A stretch of DNA of 34,522 nt from a virus, in IMG/VR virus record IMGVR_UViG_3300007539_000077, positions 1 through 34,522 of that record; one strand, 5' to 3'. Positions 1-31,689 of this stretch are shown one piece after another. The notes below the pieces were generated by a model. That model saw only the letters and a program-made list of their open reading frames with translations. It did not search any database and was not told where the DNA came from. Both the position numbers and the translations under genes were made by a program. How positions within the stretch are numbered: the first letter of the stretch is position 1; every line of letters begins with the position of its first letter.

Positions 1-366
1 ATCTCTTAGAGATGCTGCAGCTCGTGATGTACCTTTTGTTATAACTGAATCTTGATTATTAGATGAGTAAAACCAAATATCAAATGAAGCTGGGTAGGTT
101 TCAAGTATGGCTGGTTGTCCAAAGTCAACTTGATCATCAACACCATCAAAATCAAAGTATCCTCCTTCTGCAGAGTTATAGGCTGTTCCATTATCTATTG
201 AACCATTATTACCATTTATTACATCTGTCCAGGTAGTGCCTGTACCAGGATAGCTGTTTTCATCTCCAGCATCAACTCTAAATATTAGACCATCAGTGAC
301 TATATTTTCTCCTGGATCTGCTTCTGCTTTGGCAGTTGTAGCAAAAAATGCTGATATCATTGACAT
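1..366 (-). CDS. LamG-like structural/fibre protein (partial, 3' end outside window)
   Basis: Only the first 122 codons are present and the frame is open to base 1, so the C-terminus lies outside. Residues about 22-75 contain GLIFRVDAGDENSYPG, TWTDVINGNNG and GGYFDFDGVDDQVDFG, followed by ASFDIWFY. This is the usual start of a concanavalin A/LamG-like jelly-roll domain on phage fibre and decoration proteins that bind glycans. The chosen ATG overlaps the stop of the preceding gene as TAATG, with AGGA about ten bases upstream, which suggests translational coupling. A second in-frame ATG lies two codons later. It is probably the last visible member of the late unit that begins at 3206. The fold assignment is by motif; the binding role is inferred. 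Confidence 0.7.
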   Translation of the reverse strand, partial: MSMISAFFATTAKAEADPGENIVTDGLIFRVDAGDENSYPGTGTTWTDVINGNNGSIDNGTAYNSAEGGYFDFDGVDDQVDFGQPAILETYPASFDIWFYSSNNQDSVITKGTSRAAASLRD

Positions 367-3206
367 TACTGTTCCTGATTGATTGTAACTAATGCTGTAT
401 CATTACCAATATAATGATAATATACATAATTTCTTTTGGTATTATCAAATGTTCCATTCAGAACTTTAAACTGAGAACCGGTTAAATGTAATCCTGAGGC
501 AGATATATCTGTCATCACAATATTTCCTAATGTCAGAAATTTGGCATTAGTGGTCATTGACATACTGATAGCACTGTTAGATGATGTAGCCATTATTCTG
601 TTAAAATCGAATAAAAGTGTAGTACTGAATGATGATGATAACATTCCACCGGAGGTTCCAGACGGCAGTGTTACGCTAGATGTTGTTGCAGTAAATGTAC
701 CCACATCAATTCTGTTTGCCTTGATATTGAGTTCATTGGTATCAGTCCTAGCAGAAATATATGCACTGCTAGTCACATAAACTTCAAAGCCGGCTCCTGT
801 ATAATTATCCGGTGAATCTGGAAGTGCAGATCCTGAATATAACAGAAATCCTTGACCTACTCCAACTGACGCAGAAGTGAAACCTTGATATCCAACAGAT
901 CTGATGAATGCAGATCCTCCATGCATTTCAATACCGCCGCCAGGAAATGTGTTCAGAAACAGTGAACCTGACACAATGTTGTTAGTGCCGGTGATCACAG
1001 TGTTCTCACCTCTGAATGTTACTGGGTAGACATATACTTCCATGTCAGCCAATGTGTTCTTGTAATCAAAGAACTGAAATTTAAATGTCAAAGGAGTATT
1101 GAAATAGGTAGGTGGTATCCTTTTGTTTATTCTGGTAACATTAGGAGTAAATCCTGTTTCTTTAACTGCTACCAATGATATGTCAGCCAATGTCCAAGAT
1201 CCTCTGCGTATAAGAAAGAATATATCAGCTGTATCATTACGTGTTGTCTGAAACTTAAATGATATGTCATTTAAACTTTGACTAGCATTGAATTCCACAG
1301 AACCAATTCTTGTACCAAATGTGGATCGATCTTGAAAAATAGAATCTGCTACTGAGTCTAATAACTGAGTAGTTGTGCTACGTACAATATATGCGTCATT
1401 GCGATATGCGTCATCATCTGTGATAATAGTGTTTTTATCGCTCGACGAAACATAAACATCAATTCTTGGTAAAGGTATATTCGGATCTGTGCTATTAGGC
1501 GAATCTACAGCAAAACCTTTGAATGATAGTTTATATGTAGTATCCGATTTCAAATCGGTATGATATTCTGACGATGTTAAATGAAAATAAGCATATCGAT
1601 TATCAGTATTATTGAATGTTGAGTCCGGTGTGATACGAACCCCACTAATCAAATTGCCAGGATCAAACACATTAGAGACACCTACTTCCGGTAAGACGTT
1701 TGCTCCAGAACCTGACCAATATGTTTCGAAATCTTCTAGACTTGTAAAAAATCCTATCCTATTTTTAATGACCCCAGTAGCTAATTGACTTTCAACAGAA
1801 TCATCATCTTTCAATATTTCAAATTCTTCTAAAATGGTATCACCCAAATCAATGAAATCGCCGAAAAGACCTCCAGCTTTAAATAATGTCTTAACTTTAT
1901 ATACATCACCTGTAGCTGGTTCAAGATCGACCACCTCAATTTGAGCAAATGATTGCGACTGTTCTGTCACAACGGTGGTAGGTCTTCTGAAATAACTTGC
2001 TGTAAAGTTGCTACTCAGTTCTATGGTATCAATTGTTTTTGGCTGTAATGTATCAGTACCTATAGTAATATTAAATGCCCCATTGGAATTATCTGACGCA
2101 TTACTGAAACCATTTATTTGAGCTACTTTACCTCTTGTAGATGTTTCTACATCTGTAATAATAAATTGTATACTTCCGCTAAGTGGATCTGTTCTATTAG
2201 AGCCGGCAGAAGCTATTAATCCTGGTTCTGTATTTCTTTGAGATAATGGTATTAAATGATTATCAGCATTTAATGTAACACCTATAAATCCAGCACCATT
2301 ATCATCAACACCTTCAATTTTTAAATTAGGATTAACTACGGTAAGAACTCCGCCTATCATATTATTATTTAATACAAAACCAGAACCTTGTATAGTTAAT
2401 TGCGATAAGCTGCTAAATGTCAAAATAGGTCTAGATTCGGCCTGTTGTATACCTAAAACCGCATCCACTGTATTTACTAATGGCTGCTGGGCAATCGGTA
2501 CGCCGTAATTCAAAGCTGGAGATCCTAGTGATCCTTGTCCTTGATTTCCACCTGTTGTAGAAACTAGACCCGTACTTGCTATTTGTGTAGTCAACGGTGT
2601 TATACGTAAAGTAGCTCCGGAGCCAGTATCGTTTGATTGAACGCCTGGTAGATTATCAATCTGCAGAAATGGCTGAGTTACTTCTTGTATGATTGCTTTT
2701 GGCTGTTTTATGAAAATGATTTCTGAATCATTTTTTAATGTAGGAGCTACAGTTAATCTTCTGGACCATAAAACATTTGGAACATCCCTATAATTTGGAG
2801 ATTGATATTGAAGTGAATATGGTATAGATTGGCCGGTATTTGGGTCAACGGCTGCCCTGCCGGCAACAAATACAGTAGCATTGCCTGGCGGAGTTTCTGG
2901 ATATATCCATATAGATACAACTCTAGTTCCATCATGTTCAGCATATGAAATGATCTCATAGTAAATCGGCTGTCCATTGTAATCTAAAACTTCTACATGT
3001 ATTTTAGAATTATCAACTAATGTGCCAGCATTTGCCTTTATCTTAAATAAATTTTTACCAGCTTTTAATTTTTCCGGAAAATCTACGATATTGAAAAACT
3101 GATCAGATGTTGGAGTGGTATCAACTATAGAAATTGAAGATAAATCTTTCAGACCATAATATGGTCGTTTTCGCTTTAAAGCTTGAAAATTGTTAATGCC
3201 AGGCAT
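366..3206 (-). CDS. Large virion structural protein (tail/fibre-like)
   Basis: A 946-residue protein with no catalytic motif that I recognise. It is rich in Ser, Thr, Asn and Gly and alternating hydrophobic patterns, as expected of a beta-rich virion protein. The N-terminal ~125 residues look like an Ig-like or jelly-roll domain (VEVLDYNGQPIYYE, then VVSIWIYPETPPG). Residues about 760-880 carry glycine-rich fibre-like strands (GGGIEMHGGSAFI, GVGQGFLLYSGSALP). A late-promoter-like motif lies 15 bases before the ATG, overlapping the end of the upstream recombination gene, so this gene can start its own late unit. The next gene overlaps its stop codon and has a LamG domain. A role in fibre, collar or baseplate periphery is inferred from composition and position. 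Confidence 0.75.
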   Translation of the reverse strand: MPGINNFQALKRKRPYYGLKDLSSISIVDTTPTSDQFFNIVDFPEKLKAGKNLFKIKANAGTLVDNSKIHVEVLDYNGQPIYYEIISYAEHDGTRVVSIWIYPETPPGNATVFVAGRAAVDPNTGQSIPYSLQYQSPNYRDVPNVLWSRRLTVAPTLKNDSEIIFIKQPKAIIQEVTQPFLQIDNLPGVQSNDTGSGATLRITPLTTQIASTGLVSTTGGNQGQGSLGSPALNYGVPIAQQPLVNTVDAVLGIQQAESRPILTFSSLSQLTIQGSGFVLNNNMIGGVLTVVNPNLKIEGVDDNGAGFIGVTLNADNHLIPLSQRNTEPGLIASAGSNRTDPLSGSIQFIITDVETSTRGKVAQINGFSNASDNSNGAFNITIGTDTLQPKTIDTIELSSNFTASYFRRPTTVVTEQSQSFAQIEVVDLEPATGDVYKVKTLFKAGGLFGDFIDLGDTILEEFEILKDDDSVESQLATGVIKNRIGFFTSLEDFETYWSGSGANVLPEVGVSNVFDPGNLISGVRITPDSTFNNTDNRYAYFHLTSSEYHTDLKSDTTYKLSFKGFAVDSPNSTDPNIPLPRIDVYVSSSDKNTIITDDDAYRNDAYIVRSTTTQLLDSVADSIFQDRSTFGTRIGSVEFNASQSLNDISFKFQTTRNDTADIFFLIRRGSWTLADISLVAVKETGFTPNVTRINKRIPPTYFNTPLTFKFQFFDYKNTLADMEVYVYPVTFRGENTVITGTNNIVSGSLFLNTFPGGGIEMHGGSAFIRSVGYQGFTSASVGVGQGFLLYSGSALPDSPDNYTGAGFEVYVTSSAYISARTDTNELNIKANRIDVGTFTATTSSVTLPSGTSGGMLSSSFSTTLLFDFNRIMATSSNSAISMSMTTNAKFLTLGNIVMTDISASGLHLTGSQFKVLNGTFDNTKRNYVYYHYIGNDTALVTINQEQ

Positions 3207-3219
3207 TGATTACACTTTA

Positions 3220-6200
3220 TCATAAATATTGTATTTTCGAATAACCGCCTGTCTTTTTGATTTCAATCAGTTTGTCTACAATATCTCGCATTGCATCGAT
3301 ATGTGATATGCACATTATGAAACCAAATTGTGTTTTCAGATAATCAAACAACATATACATGGAGTTTAAATTATCAGAATCCAATACGCCAAATCCTTCA
3401 TCAATTGCCAAGAAATTAGGTCTTGGTAGATTTGAAACATTGATAAGTGACGTTCGAATTGCTAACGATGAAACAAATTTCTCCATACCAGATGTGAGTT
3501 CCAATGGCCAATAGTTATCTTCATCATATACAATAAAAGCATTAATGTTCTTACCATCAGTCTGTAACAATATTGTGAAATCCACAATCTGTGTCAATAT
3601 GTTGTTTATTTCAGCTTCAATCTTTGGCAAAGCCTTTGATATCAGATAATATGGTACACCGTCACGTTTCACAGCCTTCATATAATATTCATAGCCTTGA
3701 TACTGTTTTTCCAGATCTTTCAGGCGTTGAATATCTGCTTTTGTGTCAGCAATTTTCTGATTAGCAACACTTAATTTACCAGAAACATCGATGAGTTGCT
3801 GATCAATGTCATTGATTTCCCGTTCAATAAATGCCAATTCATTCTTATGTTCGTTTATATCATTGTTAAGTTTCCGATTATGTTCAATGTATTCAATCTG
3901 TTGTAATGATTTATTTAGACTTTCATTCAGTGAATTCATTTCACTTTTCAGATCATAATTCTGCCGTTCACATTGATCCAATGAAGTATTTACATTGTAA
4001 ACTCGATCTCGAATTTTTCTTTTCTTGTCTTCCAGATTATCATAATCAATTAATTTATTCTTGACATTTTGGATGTCAATCTTCTTCAGATTATCTTGTA
4101 CAAGTTTAACTTGATTATTAATTATACCTAATCTGTTCTGAAGTTCAGGTAATTTTTCTGCAATGGTCTTAGTTTCATGTAACCATGGATTTGCCATGCA
4201 GTATTCACAGTCAGGATTCCATTTATGATCATCTAATTTAGATGTCATACGCTGAGCATGTTCAATTTCCTTTTTCAATGACATCTGATTATATTCCATA
4301 TCAGATAATTCAATTCTTCGCTGATCATATAGATTGATCATTTGTTGCAATCCCGATTTATCAATTTTGGATAACTGAGAATCAATTTCGCTAAGTTTTT
4401 CATTTGCCGTGTCTATGAAATTCGAATGTTCAATTATCTGTTTGTCATTGGTTTCCAGATCTAAATCAATTGATCTAATCTTTTCTTTGATATCTTCCGG
4501 ATTTTCCAGATCATGTATCTCGTATAATTGTTGTGACAATGTTATGATTATCTCATTGAGATTGCGACGCATTTCATTATGATCTGCTTTATCTTTTGAT
4601 ATTTTATCAGAAATCTTTTGATATGTTTCGCTATCCAACTCTGCTTCTGACAAATCCTTTGACAGATCTTTCTTTTTATATTCGCGAATCAGCGCTGCTG
4701 TTTCTTTGATATCCTCATGACCGATCAAATATTGTTGTTCAAAAATTTCAATGTCAAGAAATTGTGACAAAAGATCTTTACGTTCTCTCTGTGTTTTGTC
4801 AATGAAACCTGTATTATTGTTTTGTAGTGACAGAGCAGTTAAAACAAAATCTTCATATGTACCGAGATAGTCTCTGATGTTTTTGTTTGTACTGTCTCGC
4901 TGATCACCGTTTAGATTTTCTTCATTACCATTTACATCATAACGATAAAAATTGACTGTGACTTTGACATGATCATTGCTTTGTTTTTTGCCAGAACGTT
5001 CTACACAGTAAGTATGTTTACCTAGTTCAAATTCAAACTTGCTTTGAAAGTTACTGCATTTGTTATTGAGTACATGAGCTGCTTTTTTGGTTCGACTACA
5101 TTTATCAAAACAACAAAATGCCAAAGCATCTAACAAAGTAGATTTACCTGATGCATTTGGAGCGAAGAGACCATATGATCCTTGCAGTGATGCAAAATCT
5201 ATGACATTATCAGTGCCGTAACTGAACATGTTTGAAAACTCAAACCGTTTCGGTACCCAGGTTGTGTTTCTGGCTTGTTTGTCTAATACAAGTTTACTGT
5301 GTACAGTTCTGTTAATATAACGAACAATGTCCATCATTTTATCATCTACACCGTGTTCAGCTGTTAGATATTCTGATATCACATTGTTTTGCCATTCTAC
5401 ATCTCTGACACTACCGAAATTAATTTTGTTGGCAGTATTTGTCGTATTGATCTCATTAACACGTTGTATTGTGATATCCTGTACTTTACATTTACTGCGT
5501 ATATGTGACGTAACAGCCTTTATATCTGCAGCATCAGTATTTTTAACTTTCAGTCTCAGTCTAGGCCGCGAGGGTATATTTGAAATATCTGTTTTCAGTT
5601 CACCATCTTCCACATATGCTGTGTAATAACCATAGTCATTTTTTATCTCAACAAATTCAGACGTCCTTGTTTTAACATCCCAAACCAATATACCGTGTAC
5701 CAGACCTTCGCCATGATTCTGTTGAATTAATGAACCCGCATATGCAATTGTTTTATCATCATCAAGATATTGTGTTTTATGAATATCACCTAACAATGTC
5801 ATGTCATGGCCTTCAAATATGTTTGTTGTGACATGGTCATTTTGTAGTACAAAACCGGCATCTGTGCTGGCATTGTTAACTGCGCCATGATGTAATGCAA
5901 TCTTTGTTTCAGCAGTTAGTTTGTCAGCTTTTATGAAATCAACCGGTTTGTCAAACACGGACATAACGTTAAAGTCCACATTGGCCAATCTATATATACC
6001 TGTGTCTTTAAGATAGTGTAAATCAGTGTGTTTGATAGCCTTAACGATAGGATAAAGAGCGTCTAAGCGATCTGAATTATTTAGGTTACAATCGTGGTTA
6101 CCGGTGATTACAATGGTAGGAGATATATCTGCCAATGATCTGAAAAAATCAGATACCATGTCAATAAGTTCTGGTGACATATCTGTTTTGGCATGTACAA

Positions 6201-6372
6201 TATCTCCTGCTACATATATCACAGAATTAGGTGTAGCATTCTTCTTGATATAAGAATATAATCGTTTGAACACTATCTTATACTCTTTATGACGTTTCAC
6301 ATTTCGGATATGCACATCTGCAATATGAAAAATCTTGTCAATCTGTTTTATGTCTGTTTTTATAACGTACAT
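3220..6372 (-). CDS. Fused Mre11-Rad50 (T4 gp47-gp46, SbcD-SbcC type) recombination nuclease
   Basis: One 1050-residue frame encodes both subunits of the DNA end-processing nuclease/ATPase that T4 makes as gp47 and gp46. Residues 1-~330 are a calcineurin-like phosphoesterase with ADVH (18-21), GDIVH (56-60), GNHD (91-94), HH (161-162) and GDIH (195-198). A linker leads to an SMC-type ATPase from about 375, with Walker A APNASGKST (404-412). A long coiled coil (about 550-900) is interrupted by a zinc-hook motif CEYC (722-725). The C-terminal lobe has signature ELTSGMEKF (958-966), Walker B NFLAIDEGF (986-994) and H-loop CISH (1021-1024). All key residues are present, so the fusion looks functional. 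Its start overlaps the end of the primase gene by 13 bases. Expected roles are recombination-dependent replication, repair and host-DNA degradation. I found no stop or second plausible start at the domain junction. Confidence 0.95.
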   Translation of the reverse strand: MYVIKTDIKQIDKIFHIADVHIRNVKRHKEYKIVFKRLYSYIKKNATPNSVIYVAGDIVHAKTDMSPELIDMVSDFFRSLADISPTIVITGNHDCNLNNSDRLDALYPIVKAIKHTDLHYLKDTGIYRLANVDFNVMSVFDKPVDFIKADKLTAETKIALHHGAVNNASTDAGFVLQNDHVTTNIFEGHDMTLLGDIHKTQYLDDDKTIAYAGSLIQQNHGEGLVHGILVWDVKTRTSEFVEIKNDYGYYTAYVEDGELKTDISNIPSRPRLRLKVKNTDAADIKAVTSHIRSKCKVQDITIQRVNEINTTNTANKINFGSVRDVEWQNNVISEYLTAEHGVDDKMMDIVRYINRTVHSKLVLDKQARNTTWVPKRFEFSNMFSYGTDNVIDFASLQGSYGLFAPNASGKSTLLDALAFCCFDKCSRTKKAAHVLNNKCSNFQSKFEFELGKHTYCVERSGKKQSNDHVKVTVNFYRYDVNGNEENLNGDQRDSTNKNIRDYLGTYEDFVLTALSLQNNNTGFIDKTQRERKDLLSQFLDIEIFEQQYLIGHEDIKETAALIREYKKKDLSKDLSEAELDSETYQKISDKISKDKADHNEMRRNLNEIIITLSQQLYEIHDLENPEDIKEKIRSIDLDLETNDKQIIEHSNFIDTANEKLSEIDSQLSKIDKSGLQQMINLYDQRRIELSDMEYNQMSLKKEIEHAQRMTSKLDDHKWNPDCEYCMANPWLHETKTIAEKLPELQNRLGIINNQVKLVQDNLKKIDIQNVKNKLIDYDNLEDKKRKIRDRVYNVNTSLDQCERQNYDLKSEMNSLNESLNKSLQQIEYIEHNRKLNNDINEHKNELAFIEREINDIDQQLIDVSGKLSVANQKIADTKADIQRLKDLEKQYQGYEYYMKAVKRDGVPYYLISKALPKIEAEINNILTQIVDFTILLQTDGKNINAFIVYDEDNYWPLELTSGMEKFVSSLAIRTSLINVSNLPRPNFLAIDEGFGVLDSDNLNSMYMLFDYLKTQFGFIMCISHIDAMRDIVDKLIEIKKTGGYSKIQYL
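3221..3230 (-). promoter_or_regulatory. Late-promoter-like motif (AATATTTATG)
   Basis: One of six copies of a CATATTTATA-like element; here it matches 8 of 10 bases and is followed by ATAAAG. It lies 15 bases before the ATG of the 946-residue structural gene and overlaps the stop codon of the fused gp47-gp46 gene. It would therefore let the structural gene be transcribed late, independently of the replication genes upstream. Confidence 0.5.
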
Positions 6373-7283
6373 AATATTTTTTCTTCCATTAATTTGAATT
6401 CAGACAATTCTGATGTTTGATCTATAACTTCATGTATTTTCTGAAATCCCAGATCTGCCGGATCTGAATCTGGGAGATCAACGAAATATACATGTATACC
6501 ATTTGCCATGAAATATTCAGCTGCTTCCAATGCTTGTTTACGCGCATCTTGATCTAAACATATGTAAATGTGTTTCACTGATTTTTCTACAAGTCTCAGT
6601 TTTAGTACATCTGATATAGTTTTACCAAATAAAGGAATGGCATTGCGTCGTATTGCAATCGCATCAAATACTCCTTCGACAAGCACAATAGGCTGTTTCC
6701 AATCTATATGAAGTTCAAATCCAACCACATTCTTTGATATAGATGGATTCTTATATTTCAGTGTATCATCTTTGTAATATGCTCTGGCAACAAAATAATT
6801 CAGATTAGCCGCATCATCATAGCTTGGTATGATAATCTTACCTTCATATTGTCCTGAATCACAATATCCTATTCTATATTTCAGAATGTCAGTTAAAGTG
6901 ATTCCTCGCTTAGCAAGATAATGGAATGCATTACGAAACTCTGGATCAGTACGTTGTTTCCATAATGGTTTGAATTCTGATGGTAATGTTACTACTGGAG
7001 TATTAGTAGATGTATATTTTGATTTGATTTGTACATCTTCTATCAGTTCAGCTAATCGTACAAACTTAGTTCTGTCTACTTTCAGTTTACGAAACAGTGT
7101 ATGTATCTTTCTACCCGCTGCATTGCATACCCAGCAATGCCAATGCTGTGTGATGATATTAACTTCCAGCTTTCGTTTATGATGATTACAGAAAGGACAA
7201 TGATAAGGAATGTTGTCAGATTTCTGTTTACCAGATGAACCAAGTACGGAATCTAAAAGAGAAATAACAGCATATCTGCTCAT
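6360..7283 (-). CDS. DNA primase (zinc ribbon + Toprim, T4 gp61/DnaG type)
   Basis: A 307-residue primase that would make RNA primers for lagging-strand synthesis. The N-terminus has a zinc ribbon with CPFC (29-32) and CWVC (50-53). The Toprim domain has the catalytic-glutamate motif LVEGVFDAI (201-209) and the metal-binding stretches LDQDA (243-247) and DSDPADLG (272-279). Length and layout fit a compact phage primase without a fused helicase; no helicase gene is in the window. It is followed, with a 13-base overlap, by the fused gp47-gp46 gene, suggesting co-expression. The upstream 159-base AT-rich gap is the only sizeable non-coding leader in the window and contains a candidate sigma-70-like promoter. 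Confidence 0.93.
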   Translation of the reverse strand: MSRYAVISLLDSVLGSSGKQKSDNIPYHCPFCNHHKRKLEVNIITQHWHCWVCNAAGRKIHTLFRKLKVDRTKFVRLAELIEDVQIKSKYTSTNTPVVTLPSEFKPLWKQRTDPEFRNAFHYLAKRGITLTDILKYRIGYCDSGQYEGKIIIPSYDDAANLNYFVARAYYKDDTLKYKNPSISKNVVGFELHIDWKQPIVLVEGVFDAIAIRRNAIPLFGKTISDVLKLRLVEKSVKHIYICLDQDARKQALEAAEYFMANGIHVYFVDLPDSDPADLGFQKIHEVIDQTSELSEFKLMEEKILCTL

Positions 7284-7442: not shown

Positions 7443-7856
7443 TCAAACGTTTAACCATTCATCTGGAATTTGTTTTTCTGACCATGCAATTCCATGCTTG
7501 TCACAAAAGTCACCGTAAGTAGTTTTGGAACCTTTTCTGATCTTTGTTTTTGCTGATTGAAACACTATTCTGATGTCTAAGTCTGGATGTTGCTTTTTTA
7601 TCAACAAATGTTTTTTACGATCTTCTGTGGTCCACCGTCCTTTAGTTTCAATCAATATACCATTAGGTAATGTGAAATCAACTGTATAAGTACTTTGTCT
7701 CTCAGGTATAATATAATTAATTTTTGTCGTTTCGTAAACCTTTTTTGGATCTATTTTCTGTTCAGTAAGCTGATCTGCTATCTTAACTTCAAATCCTGAT
7801 CTATAACCCGACTTCAACGCATTGCGTCGTGTCTTACTTCGGCTTCTCCAACCCAT
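7443..7856 (-). CDS. T7 endonuclease I-like Holliday junction resolvase
   Basis: A 137-residue protein of the phage endonuclease I family (T7 gp3), which cuts four-way and branched DNA before packaging. The catalytic set is recognisable: SGFE (Glu23), TVDF (Asp60), and IETKG (Glu70, Lys72), matching Glu20, Asp55, Glu65 and Lys67 of T7. Also typical are RKKHLLIKKQHPDLDIRIVF and the KGSKTTYGDF stretch. The start ATG directly follows the stop of the LamG-like structural gene (TAGATG), so it is probably read with the late unit, consistent with a role in resolving replicated DNA late. It is followed by hairpins. It occupies the role of T4 endonuclease VII (gp49), which is an unrelated fold. Confidence 0.9.
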   Translation of the reverse strand: MGWRSRSKTRRNALKSGYRSGFEVKIADQLTEQKIDPKKVYETTKINYIIPERQSTYTVDFTLPNGILIETKGRWTTEDRKKHLLIKKQHPDLDIRIVFQSAKTKIRKGSKTTYGDFCDKHGIAWSEKQIPDEWLNV

Positions 7857-27791: not shown

Positions 27792-28406
27792 TTAAATTAT
27801 TTGATCAATTAAACCATAAGATAACAATTGTTCAGAAGTTAAGAACATATCCGATTTCATATTCTCTCTCCAAAACTTTGCATCCATTTTTGTTTTTTCT
27901 GCTAAGATATCATAAATGGTATTTTCCATTACTTTGACATTTTCTAGAAATGCTGATATGTCGGACATCTTCCCTCCTAAGAAACTTGATGTCTGATGTA
28001 ACATTACCGTGCTACGTTTACTACACATTCTGGTACCAGTACCGCATGCTAATATGATAGCTGCGGCTGAGAATGCTTTACCACGACAGAGTGTATTCAC
28101 TTTCACATCCAATTGTTCAATGTAATCAATAATACCTAAAGTGGCATATACATCTCCGCCGGGCGAATCAATCAAAATGTTTACCGGTGCTTGTTTATCC
28201 GCTCGATGTTGAAGTAAACTACGCATTCGGATTATAAAATCTGTCACACTGCTGTCAGTGATTTCCTCATTCAGATATATAATAGAATCGTCATAATCTA
28301 ACAAGGTACCAAGCTGATAATTCAGTGATTCATATAAATGACCCATATCAGAATTAGATTCTTTCATAATTTTTGATGGGCCGGATTCTCCGTAGATATC
28401 TTTCAT
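27792..28406 (-). CDS. clpP: ClpP-like serine protease
   Basis: A 204-residue protein of the ClpP family with an intact catalytic triad: Ser113 in GKAFSAAAIIL, His137 in VMLHQTSS, and Asp186 in KSDMFLTSEQLLSYGLIDQ. The oxyanion/strand motif SPGGDVYATLGIIDYI (81-96) is also present. Length matches bacterial ClpP. The first ~30 residues differ from host-type ClpP, which may alter docking to an ATPase. No ClpX/ClpA partner is encoded in the window. It could exchange into host Clp complexes, process phage proteins, or act as a maturation protease; the gene lies between a zinc-type protein and an HD hydrolase rather than near head genes, so prohead protease is less likely. Confidence 0.92.
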   Translation of the reverse strand: MKDIYGESGPSKIMKESNSDMGHLYESLNYQLGTLLDYDDSIIYLNEEITDSSVTDFIIRMRSLLQHRADKQAPVNILIDSPGGDVYATLGIIDYIEQLDVKVNTLCRGKAFSAAAIILACGTGTRMCSKRSTVMLHQTSSFLGGKMSDISAFLENVKVMENTIYDILAEKTKMDAKFWRENMKSDMFLTSEQLLSYGLIDQII

Positions 28407-29991: not shown

Positions 29992-30165
29992 TTAGCTTGC
30001 AGTGACGCGATCAGTTACAAACTGTAACCTACGTCTGATTTCTTTGAGCCTGGATATTGCTTCTGCACGATCAATAGGCATGTTACGTTCCACAGTTTGT
30101 TGTAAAATCATAACCATGTTATCAGCTTCATCAAGCCGTCTTAGTGTGTTTTCTCTGTCTTTCAT
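29992..30165 (-). CDS. Small helical protein (57 residues)
   Basis: A short gene beginning MKDRENTLRRLDEADNMVMI and ending RLQFVTDRVTAS before TAA. Its ATG overlaps the UvsE stop codon as TAATG, and its stop is one base before the next gene's ATG; this tight packing supports a real gene. The protein is predicted to be two amphipathic helices rich in Arg, Glu and Leu, with ERNMPIDRAEAISRLKEI in the middle. I do not recognise a function. A late-promoter-like motif lies 25 bases upstream within the uvsE coding end, so this gene and the membrane protein could be expressed late independently of uvsE. Confidence 0.72.
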   Translation of the reverse strand: MKDRENTLRRLDEADNMVMILQQTVERNMPIDRAEAISRLKEIRRRLQFVTDRVTAS

Positions 30166-31199
30166 TATAAAACTCTTTTTTCGCTTTTAGGATAAATATG
30201 TCTGTAATGGAGAATGGCTAACTCTTTTGCCTTAGCTTCCACCACAATATCAAAGTCCATACCATATGTACGGATTTCATCATAGATGTAATCAGAATGT
30301 GCTTGTTTTCTAATCTTATCAATGTTATGTTTTATTTTTGCCAATTCAGGCCACTCTTGAACTTCATTCAGACTCAATCCTTGTTTCTGAATCATTTCTT
30401 CGAAGTCTCTTTGTTTCTCGTGAGTCCGGCATTCACTGTAATGAGTACACTGACGTACATCTGAAGGCCACGTATCAGCTGCCATTTGCAATGCTTCATA
30501 TTCATCAAGACCATCCGGATGAAACATATGATGATGATAATCAAATGTGATAGGCATGCCTACAACACGATGAAACAAATTATACAACATACGCACACTG
30601 TACATACTACTTTTATCATCATTTTCAATAACCAATCTCGCTCTACAAGCATCTGACAAACGATTGTAACCTTCAATCCATCTTACTGCAGTACCTTCAT
30701 GATTGCCATAAGCACCTCCAATATGAATATTGATCTTGTTTTCATGAGACGGTTCAAAGCCCATCAGATCAAATACTTCGGAATGTCTTTCGAGACTTGT
30801 AATACTTCTTTCTACTACATCTTGATTAGGCGAACCTAGAACGTGAAATGGGCCTGGATGTGTCGTGAGACGATGGCCATGCTCTCGAGCATACTCTCCG
30901 GCCTTGAACAAAGCTTCTGATAGTTCATCATACTGCGGGAGATCTGTTAGTTCAAAATGATCATGCCATGGCACAATTTCAGAACCGACTCGAAACAAAC
31001 GAATTCTATGCTCTTCATTCCATTTCAGATAATCAAGCAGATCTTTTGCGTTAGCAACAGACAGTTCGCCTACTTTATGCAAATCCCAAGTTGGCTGCCA
31101 AGATGCTTTTCGTAACGTCCTAGAAGTTGTAACACGACCACCTAATTTCTTTGGGCGGGACGTTAATGTCATGTTAACACAGGCATAGCCTAATCTCAT
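30165..31199 (-). CDS. uvsE: UV damage endonuclease (UvsE/UVDE)
   Basis: A 344-residue UVDE-family TIM-barrel endonuclease, which nicks DNA 5' of UV photoproducts to start excision repair. The N-terminus MRLGYACVNMTL is characteristic. Metal-ligand motifs appear in order: TTHPGPFHVLGSPN (His114), INIHIGGAYG (His159), LVIENDD (Glu192), ITFDYHHHMFHP (Asp220, His222-224) and CTHYSE (His253). It is an alternative to the T4 pyrimidine-dimer glycosylase DenV. A Bacteroidota-type promoter lies just upstream, after the hsp20 terminator, so it probably begins its own unit and is expressed early. Its stop overlaps the next ATG (TAATG). Confidence 0.93.
   Translation of the reverse strand: MRLGYACVNMTLTSRPKKLGGRVTTSRTLRKASWQPTWDLHKVGELSVANAKDLLDYLKWNEEHRIRLFRVGSEIVPWHDHFELTDLPQYDELSEALFKAGEYAREHGHRLTTHPGPFHVLGSPNQDVVERSITSLERHSEVFDLMGFEPSHENKINIHIGGAYGNHEGTAVRWIEGYNRLSDACRARLVIENDDKSSMYSVRMLYNLFHRVVGMPITFDYHHHMFHPDGLDEYEALQMAADTWPSDVRQCTHYSECRTHEKQRDFEEMIQKQGLSLNEVQEWPELAKIKHNIDKIRKQAHSDYIYDEIRTYGMDFDIVVEAKAKELAILHYRHIYPKSEKRVL
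30191..30200 (-). promoter_or_regulatory. Late-promoter-like motif (CATATTTATC)
   Basis: Nine of ten bases match the recurrent motif. It lies inside the last codons of uvsE, 25 bases before the ATG of the 57-residue gene. Because it is within coding sequence, chance is more likely here than for the intergenic copies. Confidence 0.35.
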
Positions 31200-31287: not shown

Positions 31288-31689
31288 TTAGCTGATAGAA
31301 ACTTTTTTTGTAGCCTGTTCCTTAGTGTAAGGAACTTTGATGCATAATAACCCTTTGTCTAATTTGGCATCTATCTTTTCCAAATCAAACTTTCTTGCAA
31401 GCCTCCAACCTAAGTCAAAGTTTCTGCGAGCAATACCCTTATGGATATACTCATGTGCAGGTCGATTATCTTTACGGTATGCAACTCGCAAAGTATCTCC
31501 TTGGGTCTGTAACTCCAAGTCCTGCTTGTCAACACCAACTGCTGCAATTTCAATCTGCAGACCATCGTCTGTTTCTGAAATGTCAACTGGATGCTGAACC
31601 TTACTGTTTAATGCTGTTCTGAACTCTGTTCCGTTGTCGAAAAAATTGCGGAACATCAAATCGAATGGATGTAAATCTAATGTACTCAT
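31288..31689 (-). CDS. hsp20: Small heat-shock protein Hsp20
   Basis: A 133-residue alpha-crystallin-type chaperone, an ATP-independent holdase that keeps unfolding proteins soluble. The alpha-crystallin domain spans about residues 32-120: HPVDISETDDGLQIEIAAVG, DKQDLELQTQGDTLRVAYR, then RRNFDLGWRL and the family's G-x-L signature in DKGLLCIKVPY. The C-terminal KKVSIS supplies a V-x-I oligomerisation motif. The N-terminal arm (LDLHPFDLMFRNFFDNG) is short. The start is preceded by a perfect AAGGAG with seven-base spacing, the strongest in the window. Terminator-like hairpins lie on both sides, so it looks like an independently expressed cassette. Similar genes are common in marine T4-like phages. 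Confidence 0.95.
   Translation of the reverse strand: MSTLDLHPFDLMFRNFFDNGTEFRTALNSKVQHPVDISETDDGLQIEIAAVGVDKQDLELQTQGDTLRVAYRKDNRPAHEYIHKGIARRNFDLGWRLARKFDLEKIDAKLDKGLLCIKVPYTKEQATKKVSIS

Follow-up and report, generated by a model that had tools for sequence, protein, structure and literature searches.

The 34,522-nucleotide viral stretch analyzed here (IMG/VR record IMGVR_UViG_3300007539_000077, positions 1 to 34,522; the window) raises the question of whether the nuclease and the ATPase of the Mre11-Rad50 complex can be made as one polypeptide by a phage, as a preliminary description of its gene at 3220–6372 had proposed, and what such a fusion would change. The gene is a frame of 1050 codons on the minus strand that opens with ATG at 6372 and contains no internal stops. 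It encodes an N-terminal Mre11/SbcD nuclease and, in the same chain, a complete C-terminal Rad50/SbcC ATPase of the structural maintenance of chromosomes (SMC) type. The nuclease motifs ADVH (residues 18–21), GDIVH (56–60), GNHD (91–94), HH (161–162) and GDIH (195–198) and the ATPase motifs Walker A (within 404–412), CEYC (722–725), signature LTSGMEKF (959–966) and Walker B (about 986–992) were each found where the preliminary description had placed them. Pfam matched Metallophos at 13–190 (E = 1.3e-8) and AAA_23 at 380–596 (E = 2e-12), and PHROGs matched the SbcD family (PHROG 100) at 5–306 (9.5e-24) and the SbcC family (PHROG 77) at 262–1048 (3e-42). A PDB sequence search with the fusion matched Rad50/SbcC, and a 50-sequence profile added Mre11/SbcD. 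The stop-free frame and the matches of both databases to both halves confirm that the Mre11-Rad50 fusion is real. The gene very probably specifies an Mre11-Rad50 (SbcDC) enzyme that processes DNA ends, in single-chain form, for a T4-like tailed phage of aquatic habitats; we infer this activity from its family.

An error of assembly or sequencing might have joined two genes, and the genomes of T4, SPO1, Twort-like phages and cyanophages do keep the two proteins apart with their order unchanged, as the preliminary description had it for T4. To survey relatives, we made one protein scan of viral contigs, which gave 37 loci, and a profile scan, which gave at least 579 relatives in 600 candidate stretches, with 80 kept. 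In the fetched loci, 117 frames cross the Mre11-Rad50 junction without a stop, on many separately assembled contigs, although in a few cases the same contig was retrieved in overlapping pieces. Full-length frames number 100, mostly 1039–1080 codons from stop to stop; the incomplete ones run into contig ends, are broken in the C-terminal part (L074) or are split elsewhere by an insert (L002, discussed below). Single chains with both domains proved numerous in phages, and one frame also runs through the junction in the genome of an isolate, Microcystis phage Mel-JY01, and in huge-phage genomes. This number of uninterrupted frames on separate contigs excludes chance and misassembly, and we regard the likelihood of such an error as negligible. 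All 50 aligned homologues place Trp372 18 residues after Asn354. The ratio of nonsynonymous to synonymous substitution rates (dN/dS), taken over 23 disjoint pairs of 80–98.5% identity, is 0.095 for residues 306–372, which span the junction, 0.078 for the nuclease and capping domains, 0.048 and 0.028 for the N- and C-terminal ATPase lobes, respectively, and 0.295 for the fast-evolving coiled coil. Because the spacing is identical throughout and the region is under purifying selection, the junction is a conserved, selected structure.

To understand how the two halves are connected, we built an AlphaFold2 model on 50 aligned homologues (mean predicted local distance difference test (pLDDT) score of 84; predicted template modeling score (pTM) of 0.45). 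Using VIA-align, residues 12–305 match the nuclease and capping domain of Staphylococcus aureus SbcD (7dog_B; Z of 24.7, 277 residues, 3.7 Å), and residues 372–1050 match Escherichia coli SbcC (7yzo_D; Z of 29.8, 348 residues, 3.2 Å). The capping domain is followed by a tether of 21–24 residues family-wide (pLDDT of 45–57 in blocks 301–320), two predicted helices at 325–340 and 344–359 (pLDDT of 86–93) and a covalent bridge of ∼12 residues that ends at the first Rad50 strand (371–380 in the model). The features are collected in Table 1. The preliminary description had suggested that a linker at about 330–375 takes the place of the usual docking of the Mre11 C terminus; on this reading, a covalent connection would substitute for helix-loop-helix docking and impose a new geometry. 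Every fusion constrains geometry to some degree, and the dips in pLDDT at 361–370 and 305–320 indicate flexible joints, but residues 325–359 are predicted with high confidence as a helix-loop-helix, and they align with the C termini of the separate Mre11 chains of T4, Mosig, S-CAM4 and Vibrio phage D254. Most of the fusions compared by Yoshida, Claverie and Ogata in 2011 likewise retain the capping and helix-loop-helix regions, and the gap of ∼28 Å between chain ends in the Thermotoga maritima complex suits a linker of 9–12 residues, a length like that seen here (PMC3175470). The proposed replacement is therefore unsupported, and a new geometry appears improbable.

Table 1. Features of the fusion gene and its upstream neighbours in the window
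Feature	Residues	Position	Strand	Basis
Mre11 (SbcD/gp47-like)-Rad50 (SbcC/gp46-like) fusion gene	1–1050	3220..6372	minus	Open frame; Pfam and PHROGs for both halves; about 100 homologous frames
Calcineurin-like nuclease and capping domains	1–304	5461..6372	minus	Pfam Metallophos; VIA-align; metal ligands kept
Variable, poorly ordered tether from capping domain to helix-loop-helix	305–324	5401..5460	minus	pLDDT; family alignment
Predicted helix-loop-helix at position of the Rad50-binding domain of Mre11	325–359	5296..5400	minus	AlphaFold2; alignment
Short covalent linker between Mre11 and Rad50	360–371	5260..5295	minus	Constant spacing; dN/dS
Rad50 N-terminal ATPase lobe (Walker A 404–412 at 5137–5163)	372–545	4738..5259	minus	Pfam AAA_23; VIA-align
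Antiparallel coiled-coil arms (∼170 and ∼155 residues) around zinc hook	546–885	3718..4737	minus	Long AlphaFold2 helices
Zinc hook CEYC	722–725	4198..4209	minus	CxxC invariant in 50/50 homologues
Rad50 C-terminal ATPase lobe (LTSGMEKF 3475–3498; Walker B 3397–3417)	886–1050	3223..3717	minus	Invariant signature and Walker B residues
DnaG-type primase, upstream, overlapping the fusion start by 13 nucleotides		6360..7283	minus	Pfam CHC2 zinc finger and Toprim; PHROG 47
T7 endonuclease I (Holliday-junction resolvase) homologue		7443..7856	minus	Pfam PF05367 (E = 3e-52)

Catalytic residues and those of the Walker, signature and zinc-hook motifs are kept in 49–50 of 50 diverse homologues, with the exception of the first histidine of the HH motif (residue 161), which is variable. 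The canonical set of metal ligands (Asp, His, Asp, Asn, His, His, His) is complete apart from one position, where all 50 fusions have GDIH (window 5779–5790) in place of the canonical GxHxH motif and the residue equivalent to the metal ligand His206 of Pyrococcus furiosus is Asp196. The replacement of the first histidine of GxHxH throughout the family is what might be expected of an inactive remnant, or of a protein with a structural, non-nuclease role. However, the remaining ligands are nearly invariant, the nuclease domain has the low dN/dS given above, and the same aspartate is found in Vibrio phage D254, whose SbcD is a separate chain, and in Mimivirus R555, where it replaces the His206 equivalent in a GDxxH motif (PMC3175470). 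We consider loss of nuclease function quite improbable. The aspartate is not present in the separate chains of T4, SPO1 or the cyanophages.

The single frame could also give rise to two chains, through an internal start or processing, and the invariant Met382 and the Met346/347 pair of the window protein offer candidate positions. The preliminary description had named an internal start as evidence that would count against the fused product, but before the in-frame starts between residues 250 and 420 we found no Shine-Dalgarno match of more than 3 nucleotides, and thus no convincing signal near the junction. Met346/347 is not conserved, and initiation at residue 382 would remove the first ATPase strand, making the production of two chains very improbable.

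Some observations do weigh against the assignment of the gene as a DNA-end-processing enzyme of the ordinary kind. The aspartate at the His206 position could change how the enzyme uses metal or how active it is; the pTM is just 0.45, and the relative placement of the domains, including the docking of the helix-loop-helix in cis, is not fixed by the model; and, as the window is only a 34.5-kb part of its genome, the rest might hold a separate gp46/gp47 pair. As to the latter, no credible separate Mre11 or Rad50 gene was detected in the complete 190-kb genome of Mel-JY01, where two further SbcC matches were very weak, and no credible separate SbcC or SbcD gene was detected in eight large related contigs tested, which may themselves be fragments and which, with Mel-JY01, make up the nine largest of the related records.

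Taken together, the family relationships make it most likely that the protein operates as an ordinary Mre11-Rad50 machine, an M2R2-like dimer (two Mre11 and two Rad50 moieties) acting in recombination-dependent replication and DNA-end processing. Two chains would dimerize through their Mre11 nuclease domains to give the M2R2 equivalent, each helix-loop-helix would dock, as it does when the chains are separate, at the base of a Rad50 coiled coil, and the zinc hook would link the coiled-coil tips. ATP binding would engage the Rad50 heads, which would then gate the access of DNA to the nuclease. By trimming or opening DNA ends or hairpins, the enzyme would supply a RecA/UvsX-like recombinase with ends for recombination-dependent replication and repair, beside the co-encoded primase and with the neighbouring endonuclease I resolving branched DNA; degradation of host DNA is a possible additional role. 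The fusion would mainly set 1:1 synthesis, and the architecture need not change. A natural, stable protein of 1050 residues that joins Mre11 to Rad50 is also well suited to structural studies, since its stoichiometry is fixed.

Single-chain fusions of Mre11 and Rad50 are an already published type. Yoshida, Claverie and Ogata first reported them in 2011 for Mimivirus R555, together with twelve others from bacteria, eukaryotes, plasmids and a single Bacillus phage (PMC3175470). They found R555-like genes to be abundant in marine and viral-fraction metagenomes, some on scaffolds with phage primases and T7-gp3-type endonucleases, and proposed that many belong to phages (PMC3175470). The window gene fits every point made there for R555-like fusions and is a well-resolved phage example; our literature search found no paper on the fusion of this particular phage lineage. 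Like R555, it has Mre11 before Rad50 in one chain, the same aspartate in GxHxH and the histidine that ends GDxxH, and its primase and endonuclease neighbours are those of the marine homologues (PMC3175470). In contrast to R555, a protein of 1351 residues from a giant virus of amoebae, the window fusion is found in a marine tailed phage and has shorter coiled-coil arms. The fusion is common to many aquatic phages, and our loci add full-length, syntenic phage genomes for an arrangement known in phages by 2011 mainly from short metagenomic reads, which supports the conjecture that many of the abundant marine R555-like genes are phage genes (PMC3175470).

Among phages, the Mel-JY01 protein WWT39521.1 is a full-length single chain with 44% identity over 99% and a primase gene upstream. 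It comes from a phage that infects the cyanobacterium Microcystis, its annotation says no more than "AAA domain containing protein", and beside the Mel-JY01 primase we detected no homologue of endonuclease I. Sphingomonas phage PAU gp288 and a 735-kb uncultured phage (LR756501) also join a nuclease to an SMC-type ATPase in a single chain, but with 23–27% identity and outside the clade of the window. E. coli SbcCD (PDB 6s6v and 7yzo) shares the fold of both halves but consists of two chains, with SbcC longer (1048 residues alone). T4 gp47/gp46 and SPO1 gp21.3/gp21.9 have the same two activities with the Mre11 gene first, and the SPO1 primase gene adjoins that of SbcC; unlike the single frame of the window, they form two chains with small genes in between, and they retain the histidine of GxHxH. 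T4 gp46/gp47 are annotated as needed for recombination and host DNA degradation.

Outside viral contigs, plasmids were rejected as carriers, as no plasmid match covered 80% of the query and three weak matches were separately annotated sbcC/sbcD genes. Matches in cellular genomes were confined to three metagenome-assembled contigs (L122–L124). Two of these, L122 in an archaeal bin (Nitrosopelagicus) and L123 in a bacterial one (Chloroflexi), are 11–17 kb long and have the fusion beside a phage-like primase, and L122 also has an endonuclease I gene; because of this primase neighbourhood, both are probably phage DNA, either mis-binned or host-linked.

In the separate-chain phages the order is Mre11 before Rad50 throughout, the two genes being adjacent or set apart by at most a few small genes. 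The SbcD and SbcC genes of Vibrio phage D254 (L128, 3124–5863) overlap by 26 nucleotides, an apparent near-fusion that is one frame change away from a fused gene. In the Rad50 tree, eight separate phage pairs group apart from all fused proteins, with a support of 98 in the Shimodaira-Hasegawa-like approximate likelihood ratio test, and the Mre11 tree agrees weakly (71). The PAU and 735-kb phage fusions lie on very long branches and may have arisen independently. Proteins of the giant viruses Tupanvirus, Harvfovirus and Catovirus that are as long as a fusion stand among the best viral structure matches (22–25% identity; for Tupanvirus, 25% and E = 5.5e-76). Those of phages pT24 and PAU follow, well above single-domain phage Rad50s. 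It is conceivable, if doubtful, that a T4-like aquatic phage lineage irreversibly swapped the two-chain gp46/gp47 for a single chain that descends from the same fused ancestor as the R555 group of giant viruses. Were this so, a replication gene would have passed between viruses of bacteria and the giant viruses that infect eukaryotes, along with a GDIH active site whose aspartate ligand changes metal use.

The 484-kb uncultured phage LR756508.1 (L002, 5953–10175) has a fused gene that is split within the nuclease domain, just after GDIHK, with the Mre11-Rad50 junction itself still fused. The insert is a 305-residue open reading frame with a cysteine-rich region and a TnsA-like nuclease, its ends overlap the flanking frames by a few bases, and it looks like a homing-endonuclease insertion that has given a naturally split nuclease. 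A group I intron was considered and rejected, with no Rfam match and abutting frames that leave no room for one. Because the split gene sits inside the fused clade, the split looks secondary.

In the window, the endonuclease I, primase and fusion genes are grouped on one strand and adjoin tail genes. Of the 72 full-length loci whose upstream flank extends to 3 kb or more, 71 have the primase upstream and 70 have endonuclease I nearby, and the order of endonuclease I, primase and fusion is almost constant (about 70 of 72). A RecA-family recombinase is encoded in the four largest relatives, and three of these have a family-B DNA polymerase. The annotation of Mel-JY01 includes a T4-like capsid, a contractile tail with sheath and a gp19-like tube. 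Directly downstream of the fusion (366–3206) is a gene for a 946-residue protein that has no Pfam match, and a similar protein is found at this place in most homologous loci. The window also encodes a UvdE-type UV damage endonuclease (30165–31199; Pfam E = 2.6e-58), a ClpP-like protease (27792–28406) and an Hsp20 small heat-shock protein (31288–31689).
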